Source of the DNA: Ectobacillus funiculus
GTDB lineage: Bacteria; Bacillota; Bacilli; Bacillales; Bacillaceae_G
DNA length: 64,000 bases
NCBI RefSeq assembly: GCF_004138295.1
Contig: NZ_SCFM01000004.1
Span: forward strand, 186,001 to 250,000
Reading direction: 5' to 3'
A model generated the notes under the pieces. It was not told where the DNA came from. It saw only the letters and a list, made by a program, of their open reading frames with translations, and searched no databases. Position 1 is the first letter of the stretch. Every line of letters begins with the position of its first letter. Positions 4,002 through 59,984 of this stretch are shown piece after piece. The position numbers and the translations under genes are program-made.

Positions 4002-4907
4002 TTACAGAGCTTTATCATTGATGAAAGAGTCACGAAACTTTCCAGGTGAACATCCAACCTGCCGGCTAAATAACCGAGTAAAAAATGCCGGGTCATCATA
4101 TCCAACTTCAATCGCAATCGAAAGAACTTTTTCATTTGATTCAAGAAGGAGACTTTTTGCCCTGTCGATACGAATTTGATGAACAGCCTCGATCACTGTT
4201 TTTCCAGTTTCTTCTTTAAACACCCGATTAAGATGCCTTGAGCTAATATTGAATAATTCTGATAGGGTTGCAAGCGAAATCTTCTGATCATAATGTCTTT
4301 CTAAATAACCACAAATTCTTTGAATGAGTGTATTTCTTTCCTGTGAACGCAAAGAAGCATGTTTCGTTGTGATTTGCTGCTCTCCATAAATTCTGGATAG
4401 CTGTATAAGCACCTGAACCAATTGAAGACGGATAAGGGTTGGGTATCCGGTTCTCTTTTCCTCAAATTCAGCAGCTATGCCGTCTAATAACGCAAGAACA
4501 TGTCCAGCATCTGTTCCCTTTACATGTAAGCAGTGATGAAACCGTTCATGCTTATCTAAAAATGGATGAATATAGTAGTAGTCCATTGATTCTGATATCC
4601 CCAAGTAATTCAACCAGATTTTATCAATAAGGGATGGCATAAACAGGCAGTTAATAATTTCTAAGCGTTTTCCTGGCTTAATATGATAGGTATGTATCTC
4701 TCCAGGATTAATAATAAAAACATTTCCGGCAAAAATATCGTAATGTTCTCCTTCAAACACATGTGTTGCTTCACCATCAACAACATAAACCAGTTCTACA
4801 AAATCATGGTCATGAATAGACGGCATGTTATGACTAGTATGAATATAGCGACGGATATAAAAAGGAAATTCCTTTTCATTCATGAACTGGCTGCTTACTA
4901 ATCTCAA
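4002..4907 (-). CDS. AraC-family transcriptional regulator (cupin + HTH)
   Basis: A 301-residue regulator. The N-terminal cupin sensor (about residues 20-140) carries the H-D-H-D-F-V-E-L block and a GE-HTYHI metal/ligand-pocket pattern. The C-terminal double HTH spans about 195-295, with ISSRHLNRVFKEETG as the first recognition region and GYDDPAFFTRLFSRQ as the conserved second. It lies between the sugar-operon genes and the sulfatase-like gene on the same strand, so it probably activates the ABC/dehydrogenase operon or the flanking hydrolases in response to the imported sugar. Confidence 0.9.
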   Translation of the reverse strand: MRLVSSQFMNEKEFPFYIRRYIHTSHNMPSIHDHDFVELVYVVDGEATHVFEGEHYDIFAGNVFIINPGEIHTYHIKPGKRLEIINCLFMPSLIDKIWLNYLGISESMDYYYIHPFLDKHERFHHCLHVKGTDAGHVLALLDGIAAEFEEKRTGYPTLIRLQLVQVLIQLSRIYGEQQITTKHASLRSQERNTLIQRICGYLERHYDQKISLATLSELFNISSRHLNRVFKEETGKTVIEAVHQIRIDRAKSLLLESNEKVLSIAIEVGYDDPAFFTRLFSRQVGCSPGKFRDSFINDKAL

Positions 4908-5015
4908 TAGTGTTCCGCCTCTCTTTCTTCACTAGATATGTTCGTTATCCTGTCAATTCAACATGTAGCATGTTATTTAAAGGAGCTGCTATTCCACTAA
5001 TCCCCGATAATAAAA

Positions 5016-22073: not shown

Positions 22074-23615
22074 TTATTCTAATTCTATTCTTTTCAAAGG
22101 CTTTTCTGCTGGTCCTTCTATTACATCGCCATCTACAGAAAATCTTGAACCATGACAAGGACAATCCCATGTCCGCTCTCCATTATTCCATTCAAGTTCA
22201 CATCCCATGTGAGTACAATTGGAATCGACGAGATGTAAGCATCCTTTCTCATCTCTGTATGCACAAGCCCTTGCTCCGTTTACATTGACAACAGCACCTT
22301 CATCAATATCGACATCCTCCGGGGTTCTATAAATAATTCCTATTTTCCCACCAATGAGATGCTTCGCCACATCAGCATTTGTTTTGATAAAGTTCTTAAT
22401 ACTTGGATCAGCATGAAATCTTGAGGGACTATATAATTCCGTATAAGGATTTTCCTTCCCTATAATTAAATCCCTCAGCAATAAGGCAGCTGCGGTTCCA
22501 TTTGTCATCCCCCATTTTCGATATCCCGTCGCGACAAAGATGTTGGATTGATTGTCTGAGATACGGCCAATGTAAGGGATTTTGTCCAAGGTGATTAAAT
22601 CTTGGGCAGACCATCTGTAAGGGATTTCTTTTATACCAAAAACTTCCTCTCCGAAAGCTTCCAATGCTTCATAATGCTGAATTGTAGGTATCCCTTGACC
22701 CGTTTTATGACTTTCTCCCCCGACTAAGATGAGTTTCTCTCCGTTAAAGGTTGTATAACGAAGGGAACGTGTTGGGGAATCTGCACTTATATACATTCCA
22801 CCAGGGTAGTCTTTTTCTGCCTTTATTCCGAGTACATAGGATCTTTCTGCATACATCCGTGTAAAATACAAGTTAGGCATGTCATAAAAAGGAAAATGCG
22901 AGCAGGATACAACGTTTTTGCATGTAACACTATACCCATCCCTTGTGATAACTTTCGGGCGATCTCCTTTCTCAATAGTTACTGCTGTTGTATTTTCATA
23001 AATCATACCTTCGTTTTTGACAAAAGCTTGAAGCAGATGAAGCAAAAACTTTAATGGATGGAATTGTGCCTGTTGTTTCATGACAATAGCCGCTTTTACT
23101 TGTAAAGGGAGAGGAATACTTTCTACATATTGACTGGCAATTCCCAGCTTCTTGTAGGCTTCATATTCCTGATTTATCTTACTAACAGAAGAATCGGTAT
23201 TTCCATAGATATAAGCATCTTCTTCCGTAAAGTCACATTCGATGTTATGCTCCTGAACCATATTTTTAATAAAAAGCAACGCTTCGTTGTTGGCCTCATA
23301 GTAAAGTTTAGCTTTTTCTTCCCCTAAATGATTAATAAATTCATCATAAATCAAGTCATGTTGTGCAGTGATTTTTGCAGTGGTGTGGCCAGTGGTGCCA
23401 TTTAAAATGGTACTAGCATCTAAAAGGGCTACTTGTAATCCTTCTTGTACAAGCAAGTAGGCAGTGATAATTCCAGAAATGCCTCCTCCTACTATTGCTA
23501 CATCTGCTTCAATATCTCTATCAAGCTTTGGAAAGGACGGAAATTCTAACAAATCTCTCCAATAGGGTTCTGGGAATTGCGGCATTTTACTAGCTTCTAT
23601 TTTATGTTCCGTCAT
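22074..23615 (-). CDS. yhfW: FAD-dependent oxidoreductase with C-terminal Rieske domain (YhfW-like)
   Basis: About 513 residues, starting MTEHKIEASKMPQFP after GGAGGT (a 6-residue upstream frame is discarded). A DAO-type FAD domain begins VAIVGGGISGIITAYLL and includes GTTGHTTAKITAQH. The C-terminal Rieske domain shows CTHMGCELEW and CPCHGSRFSVDG, providing the Cys-His pairs for a [2Fe-2S] cluster. The architecture equals B. subtilis YhfW, a Rieske oxidoreductase of unknown substrate. Monocistronic. Confidence 0.88.
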   Translation of the reverse strand: MTEHKIEASKMPQFPEPYWRDLLEFPSFPKLDRDIEADVAIVGGGISGIITAYLLVQEGLQVALLDASTILNGTTGHTTAKITAQHDLIYDEFINHLGEEKAKLYYEANNEALLFIKNMVQEHNIECDFTEEDAYIYGNTDSSVSKINQEYEAYKKLGIASQYVESIPLPLQVKAAIVMKQQAQFHPLKFLLHLLQAFVKNEGMIYENTTAVTIEKGDRPKVITRDGYSVTCKNVVSCSHFPFYDMPNLYFTRMYAERSYVLGIKAEKDYPGGMYISADSPTRSLRYTTFNGEKLILVGGESHKTGQGIPTIQHYEALEAFGEEVFGIKEIPYRWSAQDLITLDKIPYIGRISDNQSNIFVATGYRKWGMTNGTAAALLLRDLIIGKENPYTELYSPSRFHADPSIKNFIKTNADVAKHLIGGKIGIIYRTPEDVDIDEGAVVNVNGARACAYRDEKGCLHLVDSNCTHMGCELEWNNGERTWDCPCHGSRFSVDGDVIEGPAEKPLKRIELE

Positions 23616-23768
23616 AAAATGTACCTCCATCAATCGCTCTATTTAATATATAATTTATCCAATATGTGAAATATAATAACTTTATGTAATTTTTTACCTT
23701 CATCTCCATTATGCGTAATTCTCGTCAATCCAATACGTTGTTCCTCTTCTCATTTAGCCATTCCACCT

Positions 23769-24593: not shown

Positions 24594-24618
24594 AAGAGGC
24601 ATCATTAGACGGCCTCTT
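24594..24618 (-). terminator. Terminator of the TPP-controlled operon
   Basis: On the minus strand AAGAGGC and GCCTCTT pair around a short loop followed by TTTATTTTGG, 68 nt after the SDR gene. It marks the end of the luxE-to-SDR operon. Confidence 0.75.
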
Positions 24619-24685: not shown

Positions 24686-25453
24686 CTACATCACAAAACC
24701 ACCATCGACAATCAAGGTTTGTCCTGTTACAAACTGACTCCAATCTGAAGCTAAAAATAAAACAGGACCCGCTATATCCTCAGGAAGAGCAATTCTGCGG
24801 AGCGGAGTTTGAGCAATAATCATTTCCTTCATATCTTCCTTTGTAAACCTGCTTGCATCTGTTGGGTAAACAAGCCCCGGTGCTACACAGTTGACTCGAA
24901 TACCAAAAGGTCCCAGTTCAGCTGCTAGATTGCGACTATATCCCATTAAGGCTGTTTTCGCCGTATTATATTCATGATAAGGGACAATCGGTCTTTCAAC
25001 TAAATTACTAATGATATTGATAATACTTCCCTGACTTTGCTTTTTCATAGCAGGAAGAACTGCTTGACACATATAATGAGTAGAACGAAGCGCTCCATCG
25101 AGCTGGCTTTGGTAATCTTCCCATTTTAACTCCCAAAACATTTTACGATCATCAGGATTGAAAATATACGGTTTGAAAGCATTGTTTACCACAACATCAA
25201 TTCTTCCCATTTCTAAGAGGACTTGCTCAATCATCCCTTGAACAGCCTGCTCAGATGTGACATCTGTCTGAAAAGCCCAAGCATCCCCTCCAAGCTCTAT
25301 ACAGGAGGAGACTACCTGTTCAGCAGCCTCCTTGTTTTGGAGATAATTCACAATGACAAAAGCCTTTTCCTTTGCAAAGGCTCGCGCAATAGCCGCGCCA
25401 ATCCCTCGGCTAGCCCCTGTGATTAGGACCACTTTTCCTTGAAATTTCCCCAT
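24686..25453 (-). CDS. Short-chain dehydrogenase/reductase (FabG-like), last gene of TPP-regulated operon
   Basis: 255 residues. Rossmann TGASRGIG (residues 12-19), an NNAF variant of NNAG, and the catalytic Ser-Tyr-Lys set as IISN, then YNTAK 13 residues later. The annotation would normally be 3-oxoacyl-ACP reductase, but the genes around it argue otherwise: it follows the ABC binding protein by 12 bp in an operon behind a TPP riboswitch with LuxE- and LuxC-like enzymes. I infer that it reduces the aldehyde made by the LuxC-like enzyme to an alcohol, completing a carboxylate-to-alcohol reduction. Confidence 0.9.
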   Translation of the reverse strand: MGKFQGKVVLITGASRGIGAAIARAFAKEKAFVIVNYLQNKEAAEQVVSSCIELGGDAWAFQTDVTSEQAVQGMIEQVLLEMGRIDVVVNNAFKPYIFNPDDRKMFWELKWEDYQSQLDGALRSTHYMCQAVLPAMKKQSQGSIINIISNLVERPIVPYHEYNTAKTALMGYSRNLAAELGPFGIRVNCVAPGLVYPTDASRFTKEDMKEMIIAQTPLRRIALPEDIAGPVLFLASDWSQFVTGQTLIVDGGFVM

Positions 25454-25465
25454 AGGATTCCTCCA

Positions 25466-26479
25466 TTACTTTTTAGGAAGCAGCTCTTTCGTTACAACCT
25501 CTTCCATATTTAGCTTCTGTGTGATTAAGCCTAATGTTTGATACGTATCTGCACCTTGCTGAAGAATAGTTGTATCAAGTGCTCCTAATCCGTTTTTCTC
25601 TGTTAACTCCGATATAGTTGAAGCGTTACGAAGTTTAATCATTTCTAAGTTTTGTTTTTCATCTTTTCCATCAATTGCATACGTTTTCGCTAAAGAAGCA
25701 GCTTCTTCTGGATTTTTAATCATCCACTCTGCACTATTTTTATAGGATTCTAAAAACTTCTTTAACACGTCTTTCTTTTCTTCATAGGTTTTTTCTGTCA
25801 CAACAAATACATCGCTCGGAATATTCAAGTGATTTTTTACATCAATCACATTTACTTCTCCTAAGCCCTTTTGTTTTGCAACTGCCAAACCTGTATCAGT
25901 TGCAGCTGTCGCATCTACTTGTCCTTGCATCAATGGTGCAAAGTTAGCAATACCTGTTTCGACAATCTTGACATCCTTTTCAGAAAGACCTACTTGATTT
26001 AGCAATACAAGCAAGTTTTGGCGAGTACCACTTGATAAACTATATACGCCAATCGTTTTTCCCTTTAAATCTTCAGGCTTTGTAATATTACTTGTTTTCA
26101 GCGACACAATATTAAATACATTTTGGGGATAGATGTTGTAAATAACCTTTAATTTTTCCCCCTTATCCAAAGAAGAATATACAGAACCTGGGTCTGTAAA
26201 TGCAATGTCAGCCTGTCCGGAAAGAATATTCTTGATTGCATCTCCACCGCCGGCACCAGGAATCACTGTTACGTCTAAACCATTATCTGCAAAAAATCCT
26301 TTCTTCTTATCCACCAATAGATTCGTTTGCTCTGTTATTGGCTTACTCCAAATGGCTACCTTAAGGCTTTCTTTTTCAACTGTTTTTTTTGCTGCGTCTT
26401 TTTTCTCTTCTGCGCTGCAAGCTGAAATCAGCACGGTTACAAATAGTAGTACTACCGCTAATACATGTTTCATCTTCAT
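25466..26479 (-). CDS. NMT1/THI5-type ABC substrate-binding lipoprotein
   Basis: The start MKMKHVLAVVLL follows AAGGGAG; the ATG overlaps the permease stop (ATGA). The lipobox ISAC is near residue 21, then an NMT1/THI5-like domain (KVAIWSKPITEQTNLLVDKKKGFF, VIPGAGGGDAIKNILSGQADIAFTDPG split here for length, GVYSLSSGTRQNLL). The family includes ThiY, which binds formyl-aminopyrimidine thiamine precursors, as well as aliphatic sulfonate binders. The TPP riboswitch upstream makes a pyrimidine or other thiamine-related ligand much more likely. Confidence 0.9.
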   Translation of the reverse strand: MKMKHVLAVVLLFVTVLISACSAEEKKDAAKKTVEKESLKVAIWSKPITEQTNLLVDKKKGFFADNGLDVTVIPGAGGGDAIKNILSGQADIAFTDPGSVYSSLDKGEKLKVIYNIYPQNVFNIVSLKTSNITKPEDLKGKTIGVYSLSSGTRQNLLVLLNQVGLSEKDVKIVETGIANFAPLMQGQVDATAATDTGLAVAKQKGLGEVNVIDVKNHLNIPSDVFVVTEKTYEEKKDVLKKFLESYKNSAEWMIKNPEEAASLAKTYAIDGKDEKQNLEMIKLRNASTISELTEKNGLGALDTTILQQGADTYQTLGLITQKLNMEEVVTKELLPKK

Positions 26480-27231
26480 TTTCTTTTCTCCCTTGTATAT
26501 GGCTTTAGCCATCTTTTTTCCAATATAGCAACCAATTGGTATAAAAACATACCTATGATGGTTAACAAAAGTAACGATACAAACATTAAAGGAGTGTCCA
26601 TCATTCCTTGTGATGCGATAATTAACGCTCCTAGCCCTTCACTGCCGCCAATGAATTCCCCGACAACCGCCCCCACTACTGCCAGTACTACTGCCACCCG
26701 AAGTCCTGCCAGGATACCGGGCATGCCAGCTGGGATTTTCAAATGAATTAAAGTTTGCCAACGGCTCGCTTTCAGCATTCGAAATAGCTCTTCTTTCTGC
26801 TTATCTACATATTGAATCGCTGTTACTGTATTCTCCAATAAAGGGAAAAAACAAATAAGAGCTGTAATGACAACTTTTGAAGTCATCCCAAATCCAAACC
26901 AAAGGATAAACAACGGAGCCAACGCAAGCTTTGGCACAGCTTGGCTAGCGATCACATATGGAAAAAGCAGTTTTCGTAAAAACTCTACTTCGCCCATTAA
27001 AATTCCAAAGAACAACCCAAACAAGCCCCCACAAAATAGACCTAGTACAACCTCTAATGTCGTCCGAATAATATGAGGGAACAAATAGCCGCTCCGCATT
27101 CCATCTAGCATAGTAAAGAAGATAACAGAGGGTGCAGGTAATACCAGCTCGGACATATTTTTCGCTAACATTTCCCAAAGAGCAAGTAACACAAACAACA
27201 GGAGGAGGGAATATAGTCTTACATTTCTCAT
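26476..27231 (-). CDS. ABC transporter permease (ThiX/SsuC type)
   Basis: 251 residues. The start MRNVRLYSLL follows GGAGGGC and overlaps the ATPase stop (ATGA); a 13-residue upstream extension is discarded. About six membrane helices, with the docking loop LFRMLKASRWQTLIHLKIPAGMPG. It forms the import complex with the ATPase before it and the binding protein after it. All three genes overlap by 4 bp or less, so stoichiometric translation is expected. Confidence 0.9.
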   Translation of the reverse strand: MRNVRLYSLLLLFVLLALWEMLAKNMSELVLPAPSVIFFTMLDGMRSGYLFPHIIRTTLEVVLGLFCGGLFGLFFGILMGEVEFLRKLLFPYVIASQAVPKLALAPLFILWFGFGMTSKVVITALICFFPLLENTVTAIQYVDKQKEELFRMLKASRWQTLIHLKIPAGMPGILAGLRVAVVLAVVGAVVGEFIGGSEGLGALIIASQGMMDTPLMFVSLLLLTIIGMFLYQLVAILEKRWLKPYTREKRK

Positions 27232-27974
27232 GGCTGCCCTCCACTCATCACTTGGCGTATCTGTAAGCATAATTCGTTAAAGCCAGCATCATATCTTGTT
27301 TTGAATGTACGTGGCTTTGTAAGCTTTACATCTGATGCATAGATAATCTTCCCTTTCTCCATAACTGCAACACGGTCAGAAAGGTAGACTGCTTCTGAAA
27401 TATCATGTGTAATAAAGAGAACCGTTGTATTTTGAAGATTGCAAATTCGCAAAACATCATCCTGCAGCTCTTCTCGAGTGATGGCATCTAATGCCGCAAA
27501 CGGTTCATCCAAAAATAGCATGGATGGTTTTTGAATCAAGGCTCTAGCTAATGCAACCCGGCTCTGTTGTCCACCAGATAACTGTAGCGGATAGCGTTCG
27601 AACTGTGAGGAAAGCCCTACTAGTTCCAGTAATTGAGCAGCATGCTCCCGGTCCGATAAAGTCACCTTTCGTCTAAGGGAGATTGGCAGCAATACATTAT
27701 CTATTACCGTTTTCCACTCTAATAAGGTAGGAGATTGAAAAACAAATCCACATTCATGAGAAGGTTCTGTTACCTGCTTTCCTTGCAGCTGTATATTTCC
27801 TGTATCAGACTGGAGTAAGCCGGAAGCGAGCTTTAATAAAGTCGTCTTTCCACAGCCGCTTTTCCCTAGCAAACAATGAAACTCTCCTTTTTTCATTTCC
27901 CAATTTACCCTATCGATGATTACATTCTGTCCCTGATAGCTATAGGTTACATTATTGATTGTTAAAAAACTCAT
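27228..27974 (-). CDS. ABC transporter ATPase (ThiZ/SsuB type)
   Basis: 248 residues. Walker A GKSGCGKTT, Q-loop FVFQSPTLLEW, signature LSGGQQSR, Walker B MLFLDEP, and the H-loop in FITHDISEA are all intact. The Q-loop context (VFQSP-LLEWKTV-NV) is typical of the nitrate/sulfonate/taurine and thiamine-precursor importers. It lies 11 bp after the LuxC-like gene. Confidence 0.92.
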   Translation of the reverse strand: MSFLTINNVTYSYQGQNVIIDRVNWEMKKGEFHCLLGKSGCGKTTLLKLASGLLQSDTGNIQLQGKQVTEPSHECGFVFQSPTLLEWKTVIDNVLLPISLRRKVTLSDREHAAQLLELVGLSSQFERYPLQLSGGQQSRVALARALIQKPSMLFLDEPFAALDAITREELQDDVLRICNLQNTTVLFITHDISEAVYLSDRVAVMEKGKIIYASDVKLTKPRTFKTRYDAGFNELCLQIRQVMSGGQP

Positions 27975-27985
27975 GTTGCTACCTC

Positions 27986-29434
27986 CTAATCAACATAAGG
28001 GGCAAATTGTTCACTATAATCCTCCGCAGAAGACTCAATGTCCACTATGTTCACTAAATCTAATAGATTAAATCGGCCATCATGGTGCCAAGCAGCCTCA
28101 GGTGAGGTCATGCTTCCCAAAGCAGTGATACGTGTAACTCCGCTTTTTCCTAACAATTCTGCCCATTGAAATAATTCCTTTGGGCTTGCAGCTACACCAA
28201 CTGTCTGAAGAAAAGATCGATAAGGTGCAAGCAAAGGCAGAATGTCATCTATACTTTCAAATGAAATCACTTTAATGACTCGGTTCAGACAACTTGGTGC
28301 AAAGTCCAGTTCCTTTTCATAGACAACAGTCCAGTCATTTGTCTCATTCCCGAGTACTTCTTTATCAGGCTGGTTAAACATACTCATCTCTTCTTTTTGT
28401 CTCCATGAAGATAAGGACACTGATTCCTCCATAGAAAGATCCCGACGCGGATAACGCTTCTGGAAATTCTCCAATTCATTCGCCATATATCTAGTAAATT
28501 CCCTTGGAGAAACATTTCCTCCCTCTTGTACATAGAAAATATGAGGTGAATAGCAGCCTTGCTGATCATACCGGATAACATCAAGAGCCGCTTGATGTAC
28601 GGATTGCCATGCTTTTCTGGAATCAAGACTTAGTTTTGAAACGATCCCAAAGCTTATTTTGTGGCCAAAGGGCAAAAAACGAGTTGTTATCGGCATTCGC
28701 TGCTGTAAAGATTGCAACGAATCATTTCCGCCATACCCAACCACAACATCGGCTTGTTGGAATAAAGCCTCCTCACGTTCCTCATCTCCGCCTTTCCACC
28801 AAACAACGGCAAAACAGTCAGCTAATTTCGGTTCAACTTCAACGATTAAGTGAGCAAACCATCCTGCAAACAGCGGCTCTGCACTAGGTACCTTTCCGAT
28901 ATTTCCAGCTTTGACTAACAAACCTGAAATAAAGCTCCATAAAGGCAAAGCAGGAACATTTCCAGACCAAATATGAGTAATAAGATCAGGCCCGAAAGCT
29001 TTCGAAAACCCTCCTTTTACACGAGGCTGAAAATTATCAAGTAATAAAGGATTTCCTAAATCCTCTACTAAAAATCGTTGAAGTTCATGCTTTCGAAATG
29101 TTTTTAAGTAAGACGTGAGACCAAGACGAATAATTTCTTTGTCATAACCAGTTACGATTGGTAAAAATCGTTCAGCCATTTGGCGATACACGGTACCTCG
29201 ATCAAGCAATCGTTCGATTACTTGATCAATAATGTTCACAATTTCCGTACTTGAATAGCATTTTAAAGTTTCAGCACTAGCCTGTTTCACTTTTTGAATG
29301 ACTTTATTCATCTGTTCCGTCGTTAAAAGTGGAATTTCCACCGCTATTTCTTCATCCTTATTGCGATACTTTAAAACTTTATATTTAAACTCGTTTTCTC
29401 CGATATTCGGAAGGTAACCTGCCTGTACTCTCAT
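27986..29434 (-). CDS. LuxC-like acyl-CoA/acyl-enzyme reductase
   Basis: 482 residues of the LuxC/acyl-CoA reductase family (ALDH fold). Recognisable: HIWSGNVPALPLWS for substrate/cofactor binding, a GYGGNDSLQSL stretch, FGHKISFG, and the catalytic cysteine in YDQQGCYSP, equivalent to the QQ-C-SP active site of bioluminescence LuxC. The enzyme reduces a thioester or acyl-enzyme to an aldehyde with NADPH. No luciferase (luxAB) is present, so the aldehyde is not for light. The start overlaps the luxE-like stop (ATGA). Context suggests reduction of a thiamine-related carboxylate. Confidence 0.9.
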   Translation of the reverse strand: MRVQAGYLPNIGENEFKYKVLKYRNKDEEIAVEIPLLTTEQMNKVIQKVKQASAETLKCYSSTEIVNIIDQVIERLLDRGTVYRQMAERFLPIVTGYDKEIIRLGLTSYLKTFRKHELQRFLVEDLGNPLLLDNFQPRVKGGFSKAFGPDLITHIWSGNVPALPLWSFISGLLVKAGNIGKVPSAEPLFAGWFAHLIVEVEPKLADCFAVVWWKGGDEEREEALFQQADVVVGYGGNDSLQSLQQRMPITTRFLPFGHKISFGIVSKLSLDSRKAWQSVHQAALDVIRYDQQGCYSPHIFYVQEGGNVSPREFTRYMANELENFQKRYPRRDLSMEESVSLSSWRQKEEMSMFNQPDKEVLGNETNDWTVVYEKELDFAPSCLNRVIKVISFESIDDILPLLAPYRSFLQTVGVAASPKELFQWAELLGKSGVTRITALGSMTSPEAAWHHDGRFNLLDLVNIVDIESSAEDYSEQFAPYVD

Positions 29435-30519
29435 TTTGAGTGCCCCTTAGCTGCATGCAAAAATTCCTCCACTGCAATAGAACAGCCCTTTGCCGCAGTT
29501 CCTTGCACCCTTCCTAACAGAAGAAAACCATTATCTACCTCTATTCCTACATCCTCAGTTAAGATGGTCGTCACAGAATTAAAATTGGCTAAATCACAAT
29601 GTACAAGTACTCCGCGTTCTCCTTTTTGGACTGCCTCACCGCTCAATGGGTTAATCACCCTTGTTCGTATCCAATTAGGTCCGGACTTGACTGAGGGCAC
29701 TATCTCATTTCCATCATCATAAAACTGTGTACTCAGTTCAGTCATGCCGTACATATTGATGCAATCCGCACGGTCTACTCCTAAAGCATCAGAAAGCAGC
29801 TTGTAAAAATCGTCTAGCTCCATTTCCTTAGATTGCTTTTTAAAACCACCCGTATCAAGAATTCTACTTCCTTTAGGCAAGGAAAATGTTTTACCAATAC
29901 GTCCTAATTGCTCAAGCATATGAACAAAACTAAAGCTCGCTCCAATAAGAGCATATGGTTCTCCTGTTTCCTCGGCATGTCTGCATTCTTGTATGAAACG
30001 CTCAATATCCACTCCGTCATTGTTAATTAAATAATGGCTATCCTCTGTACCGAAGTGTTGTACAGCTAAGGATAAATAATGAGCCAAAGAGGAGTTAGGC
30101 ATCTCTGTTGCTGTTGGAAAAAGAACACCGATACGAATTTTATTGAGCCCCTTCATGAATCTTTGCTGAAAGTTCTGAATCATCGACTGATCGTACACAT
30201 GCAAAGTAGGATGATAGTGTTTTCCCCTTATCCCTTTCGTAGTACCACTTGTCATGAAGATAGCTTCGGCCTGCTCCGAATCTGTACAACTTAATGTCAC
30301 ATCTTTAAAGGCATTGATTGGAACTGCAGGAATATCTCGCCACGATTTGACCATTCTCGGTGTCTTACCCTTTTGCATACAGAACGAACGATAGGGTAAA
30401 TTATATTGATACTGATATAAAAATAGCTGTAATGCTTGTTCATTAAAGTCATTCTCATCAGAGCTATCCCTTTGTATAAAACGCAGAACATGTTCCATGA
30501 TTTCTTGTTGCTGTTCCAT
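29431..30519 (-). CDS. LuxE-like acyl-protein synthetase
   Basis: About 362 residues of the LuxE/acyl-protein synthetase family (ANL adenylate-forming fold). The Ser/Thr-rich nucleotide loop FMTSGTTKGIRGKH and NMYGMTELSTQFY are visible. The C-terminal GRVQGTAAKGCSIAVEEFL contains the Cys that receives the acyl group in LuxE. The chosen start MEQQQEIMEHV lies after the riboswitch terminator; the open frame reaches into the terminator (to 30570) and cannot all be translated. A TTG at 30528 after AGGAAGAAGG is an alternative start. It activates a carboxylate and passes it to the LuxC partner. Confidence 0.88.
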   Translation of the reverse strand: MEQQQEIMEHVLRFIQRDSSDENDFNEQALQLFLYQYQYNLPYRSFCMQKGKTPRMVKSWRDIPAVPINAFKDVTLSCTDSEQAEAIFMTSGTTKGIRGKHYHPTLHVYDQSMIQNFQQRFMKGLNKIRIGVLFPTATEMPNSSLAHYLSLAVQHFGTEDSHYLINNDGVDIERFIQECRHAEETGEPYALIGASFSFVHMLEQLGRIGKTFSLPKGSRILDTGGFKKQSKEMELDDFYKLLSDALGVDRADCINMYGMTELSTQFYDDGNEIVPSVKSGPNWIRTRVINPLSGEAVQKGERGVLVHCDLANFNSVTTILTEDVGIEVDNGFLLLGRVQGTAAKGCSIAVEEFLHAAKGHSK

Positions 30520-30543
30520 TGTCTCCAAACCCTTCTTCCTAAT

Positions 30544-30680
30544 ATAAAAAAATGCACTTTGCGTAAGCAAAGTGCATAAATATCCTCTTCATCACTTTTC
30601 CTACGCTGGCATTACCCAACAGGTTCAACGGTCTACGACAGATTAGCCGTACTCTCAGCCTGATACCACAGACTCCCGAT
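30544..30680 (-). ncRNA. TPP riboswitch (THI element) with intrinsic terminator
   Basis: On the minus strand the aptamer contains CTGAGAGTACGG, then ACCGTTGAACCTGTTGGGTA and AATGCCAGCGTAGGAAA, the conserved pyrimidine- and pyrophosphate-binding arms. It is followed by a perfect 10-bp terminator (TGCACTTTGC, 30553-30576) and seven U. High TPP should end transcription before luxE. It controls the operon luxE-luxC-ATPase-permease-binding protein-SDR. Confidence 0.95.
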
Positions 30681-30888
30681 ATACAAATATAAGCTAAGGT
30701 TTATGTAAGCCTATTCAATCCAATACAAGATGTAATAAGGCACTAAGAAGCTGCCAACTCGACATATGAGAATTCTACTCTTTCTTTAACGAAAACGCAA
30801 TAGATTAAGTTCTCTTCTTCAACTGAACTGCTCTGTTAACCGCCTATGAAGCAACGCTGCACCACAGAGAATGGAACTTCAAACCAAA

Positions 30889-58505: not shown

Positions 58506-58517
58506 TTCGTAAATAAT

Positions 58518-58597
58518 ACCGGTGGTCGGGGTCGAACCGACACTCCAGAGGAACACGATTTTGAGTCGTGCGCGTCTGCCAATTCCGCCACACCGGC
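58518..58597 (-). tRNA. tRNA-Leu (CAA)
   Basis: Complete class II cloverleaf with acceptor GCCGGTG/CACCGGT (terminal G:U), anticodon loop CTCAAAA, long variable arm, and T loop GTTCGAC. First gene (3'-most) of the minus-strand tRNA cluster. CCA is not encoded. Confidence 0.92.
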
Positions 58598-58602
58598 ATA
58601 AA

Positions 58603-58674
58603 AGCGGAAGACGGGATTCGAACCCGCGACCCCAACCTTGGCAAGGTTGTATTCTACCACTGAACTACTTCCGC
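58603..58674 (-). tRNA. tRNA-Gly (GCC)
   Basis: Acceptor GCGGAAG/CTTCCGC, anticodon GCC in TTGCCAA, T loop GTTCGAATCC. CCA not encoded. Confidence 0.93.
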
Positions 58675-58709
58675 ATGACAAACACTATATCATATACAAT
58701 TATAAATGG

Positions 58710-58790
58710 TGCGGGTGAAGGGACTCGAACCCCCACGCCAAAGGCGCCAGATCCTAAGTCTGGTGCGTCTGCCAATTCCGCCACACCCGC
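58710..58790 (-). tRNA. tRNA-Leu (TAG)
   Basis: Acceptor GCGGGTG/CACCCGC, anticodon TAG in CTTAGGA, long variable arm, T loop GTTCGAGTCC. Confidence 0.93.
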
Positions 58791-58818
58791 AAGCTTCAAA
58801 CATCTTATTCAAATCCGA

Positions 58819-58903
58819 TGGTGGAGGGGGACGGATTCGAACCGCCGAACCCTGAGGGAGCGGATTTACAGTCCGCCGCGTTTAGCCACTTCGCTACCCC
58901 TCC
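58819..58903 (-). tRNA. tRNA-Tyr (GTA)
   Basis: Acceptor GGAGGGG/CCCCTCC, anticodon GTA in CTGTAAA, class II variable arm, encoded CCA (58819-58821). Confidence 0.93.
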
Positions 58904-59151
58904 AGAAAATGTTTAAAAAAATTGAATTCATCAAAACACATAAACTAAATGTATAGATTTTAAATTTATTTCTTTTTCTTTCCAACCATCATTTCGTATG
59001 AACCCTCATTGGCGGAAGAACAATATAACATGTCTTTTTCTTTCATGCAATCCCTTTTTAATAAAGGAAACCTTAGAAAAAACATCACTCTTATCATATG
59101 ATGATTGCTGTGATCCTCATATCTTATAGCTAAAAATCATCATATGTATGG

Positions 59152-59239
59152 CAGAGAAGAAGGGATTCGAACCCTCGCACCGGTTACCCGATCTACTCCC
59201 TTAGCAGGGGAGCCCCTTGAGCCACTTGGGTACTTCTCT
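59152..59239 (-). tRNA. tRNA-Ser (GCT)
   Basis: Acceptor AGAGAAG/CTTCTCT, anticodon GCT in CTGCTAA, long variable arm. No encoded CCA. Confidence 0.92.
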
Positions 59240-59242
59240 ATT

Positions 59243-59317
59243 TGGCTCCGCAAGTAGGATTCGAACCTACGACCTATCGGTTAACAGCCGATTGCTCTAC
59301 CGCTGAGCTATTGCGGA
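59243..59317 (-). tRNA. tRNA-Asn (GTT)
   Basis: Acceptor TCCGCAA/TTGCGGA, anticodon GTT in CTGTTAA, T loop GTTCGAATCC, encoded CCA. Confidence 0.93.
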
Positions 59318-59324
59318 ATACTTA

Positions 59325-59400
59325 TGGTGGAGCCTAGCGGGATCGAACCGCTGACCTCCTGCGTGCAAAGCAGGCGCTCTCCCAGCTGAGCTAAGGCCCC
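59325..59400 (-). tRNA. tRNA-Ala (TGC)
   Basis: Acceptor GGGGCCT/AGGCTCC, anticodon TGC in TTTGCAC, D loop AGCTGGGA, encoded CCA. Confidence 0.93.
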
Positions 59401-59439
59401 AAATGAGTGAAACACCGTGAACCTTTCATTGATATGATG

Positions 59440-59700
59440 ACATAAGTGTTACTTATACAGCCAGCTCGTTCAGAGCGACCCTGCGACACACAGAACATTC
59501 CACTTATGGCTGCTTCCTTCCGGACCTGACCAAATTCATGGGGTTCTGTTGCGAGGACTCCAAAGGTCAACACCGCTTATATAAGGCAAGCCTTACATCC
59601 ATCATACCGCTGAAAGGAATTCAGCCTCGCTAGAGCGGATTGCGAGTTACAGGGCACCGCTATCTCCCCGCCTATCACGGTATGTATTTAATATAGAATA
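59440..59700 (-). ncRNA. ffs: Signal recognition particle RNA (large, Bacillus type)
   Basis: Read on the minus strand: 5' domain with GATAGCGGTGCCCTGTAAC, Alu-type arm, and the universally conserved S-domain hairpin GTCAGGTCCGGAAGGAAGCAGC (in two blocks: GGTCAGGTCCGGAAGGAAGC then AGCC), closing with GCAGGGTCGCTC...GAGCTGGCTG. It scaffolds Ffh for cotranslational membrane targeting. The ~260-nt size with an Alu domain is typical of Bacillus; ends are approximate. It is embedded among tRNA genes. Confidence 0.93.
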
Positions 59701-59901
59701 AACTATGTCTTTTTTAAAGGCATTCCCACCATATGCCGTGTTCCCAGATGTTTTATAAACCCGCTCTCACAGGTGGGTTTCCGCATATTGACCTTCCTGC
59801 GATCCTAAACGAGTAGGCGTGGCATCAGTCAAATACATTAGGAATCCCGAATCAATCTTACGGTTTAAAACATGTAGGGATCACGAACATTGCAGGACAT
59901 A

Positions 59902-59984
59902 TGCGATCGAGAGGACTTGAACCTCCACGAGATTGCTCTCACTAGGCCCTCAACCTAGCGCGTCTGCCGTTCCGCCACGGTCGC
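59902..59984 (-). tRNA. tRNA-Leu (GAG)
   Basis: Acceptor GCGACCG/CGATCGC (one mismatch), anticodon GAG in TTGAGGG, long variable arm, T loop GTTCAAGTCC. Upstream-most tRNA of the cluster. Confidence 0.9.

Follow-up and report, generated by a model that had tools for sequence, protein, structure and literature searches.

Why should relatives of LuxE and LuxC stand behind a thiamin pyrophosphate (TPP) riboswitch, together with an importer and a short-chain dehydrogenase/reductase (SDR)? We addressed this question for an operon on the minus strand of a 64,000-nucleotide stretch of the Ectobacillus funiculus genome (contig NZ_SCFM01000004.1; the whole stretch is called the window below). As judged from sequence comparisons and structure models, the operon probably serves TPP-repressed salvage of vitamin B1, and the compound most likely reduced is 4-amino-2-methylpyrimidine-5-carboxylate, the product being hydroxymethylpyrimidine (HMP). 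An earlier note on this DNA had proposed TPP-controlled import of an oxidised thiamin-related acid and its reduction to an alcohol. This part fits, and the choice between a pyrimidine and a thiazole, which the note had left open, now falls toward the pyrimidine.

The import-and-reduce reading is supported by the conserved gene set, the swap of permeases between loci, the thiM, thiD and thiE neighbors, and the predicted folds. It should be noted that the two halves of thiamin, HMP and hydroxyethylthiazole (HET), each end in a primary alcohol. The pyrimidine half is favored because ThiM and thiamin pyrophosphokinase (TPK) are both missing from 19 of 64 operon-bearing genomes, because some genomes have ThiG but lack ThiC, and because of the NCS2 nucleobase permease of some relatives and the ThiY-like binding protein.

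The proposed route is as follows. When TPP is scarce, an antiterminator would form in the leader and the operon would be transcribed. The ATP-binding cassette (ABC) importer, or an NCS2 permease in some relatives, would take in an oxidised breakdown product of thiamin, most likely 4-amino-2-methylpyrimidine-5-carboxylate. LuxE would adenylate the carboxylate with ATP and transfer it to its C-terminal Cys; LuxC would accept the acyl group on its own Cys and use NAD(P)H to form the pyrimidine aldehyde, which the SDR would convert to HMP. ThiD and ThiE would then lead from HMP to thiamin phosphate. For this operon, we infer the TPP response, the substrate, the enzyme activities and the cofactors.

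The operon and its leader

The gene set and order claimed in the earlier note (Table 1) were found, with all six families confirmed by domain matches. Its description of genes mostly overlapping by 4 bp agrees with three junctions (LuxE/LuxC, ATPase/permease and permease/substrate-binding lipoprotein), where the starts lie behind ribosome-binding-site-like stretches; the other two pairs are 11 bases (LuxC/ATPase) and 12 bases (binding lipoprotein/SDR) apart. The AKGCS motif of LuxE and the QQGC motif of LuxC are intact, and no luciferase family was found among the six operon proteins by domain search, both as claimed. The single closing terminator was also recovered, as a stem-loop with an 11-base loop that was missed by the terminator scanner, whose limit is 8 bases.

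Table 1. Features of the operon in the window (all on the minus strand)
Feature	Position	Strand	Basis and remarks
Unit from aptamer to end terminator	30688-24594	-	LuxE-LuxC-ATPase-permease-NMT1/THI5 lipoprotein-SDR
TPP riboswitch aptamer (THI element)	30581..30688	-	cmscan RF00059 48.9 bits, E 1.2e-8; cut-off 54.3
Predicted antiterminator	30561..30606	-	ViennaRNA -17.3 kcal/mol; aptamer 3' end (GCGTA...AAAGTG) with terminator 5' arm
Intrinsic terminator of riboswitch	30552..30577	-	11 pairs, then T-run; -16.1 kcal/mol
LuxE-like acyl-protein synthetase	29431..30519	-	PF04443 E 3.6e-26; ATP-dependent carboxylate activation onto Cys, by family
LuxC-like acyl-thioester reductase	27986..29434	-	PF05893 E 3.3e-94; aldehyde-forming, by family
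ABC importer ATPase	27228..27974	-	PF00005 (ABC_tran)
ABC importer permease	26476..27231	-	PF00528 (BPD_transp_1); start picked by ribosome-binding-site-like stretch
Substrate-binding lipoprotein (SBP), NMT1/THI5-like	25466..26479	-	PF09084 E 1.5e-52
SDR, proposed aldehyde to alcohol step	24686..25453	-	PF13561 E 5.5e-61
Operon-end terminator-like stem-loop and T-run	24594..24618	-	7-bp stem, read from sequence

At the aptamer's 3' end, GCGTAGGAAAAGTG can pair with CACTTTGCTTACGC, the terminator's 5' arm (ViennaRNA, -17.3 kcal/mol for this pairing versus -16.1 kcal/mol for the terminator). The predicted antiterminator overlaps both the aptamer and the terminator, which gives a mutually exclusive expression platform. 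The leader thus appears to have the usual layout of a switch turned off by TPP, the response itself being predicted. The aptamer and terminator named in the earlier note are present, but its word "canonical" is slightly generous, as the aptamer scores below the RF00059 cut-off and is therefore missing from a run over the whole window at the curated threshold. It looks like a slightly divergent member of RF00059, given that 13 of 19 related aptamers of the order pass this cut-off. Six TPP aptamers were found in the genome, including that of the operon. Elsewhere in it (G000, contig C117, 22694-22793 and 22849-22957), tandem TPP aptamers precede tenA, ThiXYZ-like and thiazole genes.

Recurrence of the operon

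We compared the LuxC protein of the window with 397 genomes of the same order. Matches were found in 21 genomes: the own genome, one with a weak match of 26% identity (G027), and 19 with near-full-length proteins at 39-79% identity. A TPP aptamer lies upstream of LuxC at all 19 near-full-length loci, with RF00059 scores of 49.5-84.0 bits; the six that do not pass the cut-off are slightly under it (49.5-53.9 bits). The order LuxE-LuxC-ATPase-permease-SBP-SDR is found at 14 loci, and five have an NCS2 nucleobase symporter (PF00860) in place of the ABC importer, in the order NCS2 permease-LuxE-LuxC-SDR. The genes thiM, thiD and thiE adjoin the operon at some loci; for example, at L045 thiM and thiD (by family) and thiE (by likeness) lie between the aptamer and the NCS2 gene. 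No other copy of the operon was found in the three genomes of the same genus and 15 of the same family that were searched.

A wider scan of a genome collection with an alignment of 16 LuxC sequences yielded at least 455 relatives, and the best 80 of these 455 were analysed. The 80 loci were picked on LuxC alone, not on the riboswitch, and at least seven are common to the 19 loci of the order. They come from Bacillaceae, other Bacillota (e.g., Desulfosporosinus), Polaromonas, Variovorax, Acidovorax, Achromobacter, Azospirillum and Roseomonas, and also include marine alphaproteobacterial bins and one bin labelled Flavobacteriales. By tblastn, 67 of the 80 have all six genes in order (six of these with ThiW in front), nine have LuxE-LuxC-SDR only, and the remaining four run off short contigs. 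A covariance model, R1, placed an aptamer in the 1.2 kb preceding the operon at 78 loci, 77 of them at E < 0.01 and one, at a contig edge (L098), at E 0.034. R1 models only 18 pairs and was trained on 26 aptamers, including the one in the window, those from close relatives and seven that belong to other genes; as close relatives are in the training set, their R1 scores are partly high by construction. Scores in Polaromonas are low. With the RF00059 model, applied to 13 of the 80 loci, ten pass the cut-off and L097, L098 and L102 fail. The arrangement for which the earlier note suggested a search, luxC-luxE beside thiXYZ-like genes under THI elements, recurs both in the order and beyond it. Because the same gene order and aptamer are found in many genera, the operon is not a chance arrangement.

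In a LuxC tree of 97 rows (quick model, long branches flagged), the eight NCS2-type rows form one clade and the three transporter states need four changes; deeper branches carry no weight. Since LuxE, LuxC and SDR are constant across loci, the importer being variable or absent, these three are taken as the core, which is predicted to convert a carboxylate via an aldehyde to an alcohol with a swappable importer.

Plasmid records were matched as well (55 by LuxC and 43 by LuxE), and nine loci were examined. All eight in-clade loci have the aptamer, and none was detected in a Priestia plasmid outgroup, an unrelated cluster with a 27%-identical LuxE (best match 12 bits, E 0.5). All six genes are found on Priestia and Azospirillum plasmids, and two Pantoea plasmids carry aptamer-LuxE-LuxC-SDR. 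At the Niallia taxi locus (L155), two tandem aptamers (4697-4805 and 4884-4993) are followed by ThiW, NCS2, LuxE, LuxC and SDR. Plasmids of Lactiplantibacillus and Levilactobacillus (L153 and L157; 10 and 21 kb) share the same aptamer-NCS2-LuxE-LuxC-SDR cassette with identical LuxC. The presence of the operon on plasmids, including these two small ones of food lactobacilli, suggests that it may move between hosts. No encoded relative was found in the viral contigs searched.

Two plasmid observations should be added. On a Pseudomonas silvicola plasmid (L156, 7001-10267), LuxE, LuxC and SDR are apparently in pieces behind an aptamer match. The Priestia outgroup plasmid (L154, 5836-7005), without a TPP aptamer, carries a different LuxE-family protein beside a fatty acyl-AMP ligase, a carrier protein, a cysteine desulfurase and an Fe-S scaffold.

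The loci with LuxE-LuxC-SDR and no adjacent ABC or NCS2 importer (the nine among the 80 and the two Pantoea plasmids) would suit intracellular repair, in which these enzymes rescue pyrimidine carboxylate formed from the cell's own oxidised thiamin or HMP, import being secondary. However, an importer is part of the operon at most loci, and we consider repair improbable.

The carboxylate-reducing core

The LuxE protein scores 92.4 bits against PF04443 (cut-off 24.9). The Cys of its AKGCS motif is invariant in 16 of 16 aligned sequences, the motif A[KR]GCS is present in 78 of the 80 relatives, and the nearest PDB relative is the LuxE of 7xc6 (E 5.6e-30). LuxC scores 316.4 bits against PF05893 (cut-off 21). 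The Cys of QQ[GS]C is likewise invariant (16 of 16), DQQGC is found in 79 of the 80 relatives, and the LuxC model (pLDDT 80) has 7xc6_A LuxC as the top fold match (E 5.7e-24), followed by aldehyde dehydrogenases. The Y-x-x-x-K motif of the SDR was present in all 76 relatives read. In these families, an ATP-driven activation followed by reduction of the thioester and then of the aldehyde takes a carboxylate to a primary alcohol.

The homology to LuxC and LuxE, with 7xc6 as the nearest solved structure, and the public names in plasmid records (long-chain fatty acid-CoA ligase, acyl-CoA reductase, 3-oxoacyl-ACP reductase) would agree with a conventional reductase of long-chain fatty acids or acyl-CoA whose position behind a TPP riboswitch is accidental. 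Conversely, the window proteins reach 109.1 bits versus 750 for the NCBIfam equivalog of luminous LuxC (NF052251), and 88.5 versus 550 bits for that of LuxE (NF052244); being so far under these cut-offs, they are not the fatty-acid equivalogs. The aptamer at 78 of 80 loci, the thiamin-type SBP and the thiM, thiD and thiE neighbors also speak against this explanation, to which we give hardly any credence.

Thiamin genes of operon-bearing genomes

We profiled thiamin genes in 64 operon-bearing genomes, i.e., 20 of the order (own included) and 44 more isolates drawn from the 80 loci. Of the 46 such isolates, L061 and L116 were omitted on no particular grounds, and 27 bins and seven duplicates were also left aside. 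Real matches to ThiM (E under 1e-70) were found in 44 genomes and none in 20; the raw count is 45, with a partial match of 24-27 bits in G422 that is above the cut-off but was read as another kinase. TPK has no match in 23 genomes, and two of the 41 with matches (G210 and G392) have short fragments only. ThiG is real in 60; all 64 formally pass, those of G107, G302, G412 and G416 being partial at about 32 bits or less. ThiC is missing from ten genomes, seven of which keep a real ThiG. ThiD was present in all 30 genomes tested.

Neither ThiM nor TPK was found in 19 of the 64 genomes, all of them proteobacterial, all with ThiD and none at the ThiK cut-off; in five of the 19 (G424, G428, G430, G431 and G434) TenA is missing too. 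The ThiK cut-off was reached by none of the 22 proteobacterial genomes, with weak matches up to 36 bits in ten. Without ThiM and TPK, neither HET nor thiamin would lead further in the 19 genomes by the routes considered, whereas HMP enters via ThiD.

These counts bear on the main rival substrate, 4-methylthiazole-5-acetate, which the same enzymes would reduce to HET for phosphorylation by ThiM. The carboxylate-to-alcohol logic is just as exact for this compound, ThiM is found in 44 genomes, and thiM adjoins the operon at some loci. The operon includes ThiW, predicted to transport a thiazole precursor, at six of the 80 loci and at L037 and L155, so the thiazole link stays alive. On the other hand, a real ThiM is missing from 20 genomes, although its role might be taken by a different kinase, and 60 have a real ThiG; a HET importer is already there where ThiW sits in the operon, and a pyrimidine is the more natural cargo for the NCS2 nucleobase permease. 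We regard thiazole acetate as unlikely, with a small but appreciable chance. Reduction of a thiazole-2-carboxylate was dropped as a candidate, as its product would not be HET; degradation rather than salvage was dropped as well, since TPP repression and ATP use point to salvage.

For the pyrimidine, we read the TPP-controlled loci of two genomes with ThiG and no ThiC (G413 and G419) and of three with neither (G107, G302 and G412). Bacillus sp. OK048 (G413) has no ThiC and no TenA, and the four TPP aptamers found in it lie ahead of thiazole synthesis, ThiT, thiM-thiD-thiE, and a ThiW-LuxE operon. Its thiazole pathway would serve no purpose if no pyrimidine were available, and the ThiW-LuxE operon is the only candidate pyrimidine source found among its TPP-controlled loci, a draft gap or an importer outside TPP control being possible. 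A YkoEDC-like transporter (by likeness) is also under TPP control in G107. In G302 (L137, 644-750), a TPP aptamer precedes an amino acid ABC transporter of the cystine type.

Importers and binding protein

The SBP model (pLDDT 86) has as its top fold match 3ix1, a formylaminopyrimidine (FAMP)-binding protein (E 9.7e-23); 4nmy (thiamin-bound), 3qsl and THI5 come next, and taurine/sulfonate binders rank lower. Its identity to three ThiY-type proteins, named by gene context, is 20-22%. The alternative importer belongs to NCS2, a family of permeases that carry nucleobases.

The likeness to thiamin-bound 4nmy would agree with import of thiamin acetic acid, a known product of bacterial thiamin oxidation, and its reduction to thiamin. 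However, TPK has no match in 23 of the 64 genomes, and the ThiK cut-off is reached by none of the 22 proteobacterial ones, although ten have weak matches. Five of these 22 also lack TenA, so thiamin would be useless to them by known routes. Nucleobase permeases do not suit this substrate either, and we consider it very improbable.

Several observations weigh against salvage of the pyrimidine carboxylate, our preferred reading. Regarding the riboswitch, the aptamer is about 1 kb away from the operon at L121 and L128, and none was found in the 1 kb searched upstream, with filters off, at L087 and L100. Regarding gene content, the profile set consists of operon-bearing genomes only. ThiC is present in 54 of the 64, so the operon usually supplements synthesis, and the genome of the window itself encodes ThiC, ThiG, TenA, ThiM, ThiD and TPK. 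TenA is present in seven of the ten genomes without ThiC; G412 and G419 have TenA/ThiXYZ-type and YlmB-like genes under TPP control, so the operon is not the sole pyrimidine route there. G416 has the opposite pattern, ThiC without a real ThiG, and Bacillus sp. OK048 has ThiT and TPK and could live on thiamin. Regarding the proteins, the SDR belongs to a generic family, ThiW is part of some operons, the second fold match of the SBP binds thiamin, and the three ThiY-type proteins are also rows in the alignment behind the SBP model. The ThiY-type motif W-x-P-N-x-x-H is missing, 13 aligned operon SBPs reading W-S-x-x-I-x-E there. The ligand is therefore probably not FAMP itself, and the SBP may bind a different pyrimidine.

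Comparison with known systems

The ThiXYZ-YlmB-TenA pathway, as outlined in an excerpt of PMC5627462, salvages FAMP from base-degraded thiamin, and shares with the operon TPP control, an NMT1/THI5-type ABC importer and HMP obtained from a damaged thiamin pyrimidine. It differs in that amide hydrolysis and TenA are used there, whereas here, by family, LuxE, LuxC and the SDR are expected to reduce a carboxylate at the expense of ATP and NAD(P)H, and in that the SBP has low identity to the ThiY type and lacks its motif. No amidohydrolase or TenA was found among the six operon proteins by domain search, TenA being encoded elsewhere in the genome. Luminous LuxCE (7xc6) has the same two families, the same Cys residues in AKGCS and QQGC, and adjacent genes; the operon, in contrast, has no luciferase among its six proteins, an added SDR, a TPP aptamer and a proposed small-heterocycle substrate.

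Carboxylic acid reductases also convert a carboxylate to an aldehyde with ATP and NADPH. They are single multidomain enzymes with a phosphopantetheine carrier, whereas two small proteins with Cys carriers are found here. A nucleobase-type transporter of HMP, CytX, is known too. Another nucleobase transporter, PLUTO, is implicated in HMP transport (PMC5874261), so that recruitment of such a family to the thiamin pyrimidine has parallels; PLUTO belongs to NCS1, whereas the permease of the operon belongs to NCS2 and is linked to carboxylate-reducing genes.

The proposed substrate is a thiamin metabolite isolated from rat urine, according to the title of Neal and Pearson (1964) as cited in PMC7780320. 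The B1 vitamers counted in the consulted part of PMC10881298 are HMP, its aminomethyl and formylaminomethyl forms, HET and cHET, the pyrimidine-5-carboxylate not being listed there. The main texts of two riboswitch-regulon surveys (PMC3766115 and PMC2211319), supplements aside, contain no word starting with "lux". No title or abstract found in searches of the open-licence literature concerns the operon or a link of LuxC/LuxE to thiamin salvage, though subscription papers or RegPrecise could hold one, and the gene cluster is apparently undescribed. On balance, we favor an undescribed, widely shared B1 salvage system in which LuxE-LuxC, a pair familiar from fatty acid reduction, and an SDR turn the aromatic heterocycle 4-amino-2-methylpyrimidine-5-carboxylate to HMP; the "long-chain fatty acid" names of this clade would then be wrong.

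Other features of the window

On the minus strand, the window also contains an FAD-dependent oxidoreductase (DAO) whose frame also encodes a Rieske domain at the C-terminus (22074-23633), a Group II intron match (D1-D4-4 family, 41597-41457, 98.9 bits), and eight tRNA matches clustered with large signal recognition particle RNA and 6S RNA (58517-59984).

Implications

If the proposed route is true, a waste product of thiamin breakdown becomes a usable source of B1, adding a pyrimidine route to those known. It would also explain a cluster to which plasmid records give fatty-acid names. With the carboxylate route, predictions of auxotrophy might need revision where ThiC is missing, and the LuxC/LuxE pair would gain a small-molecule role outside luminescence.

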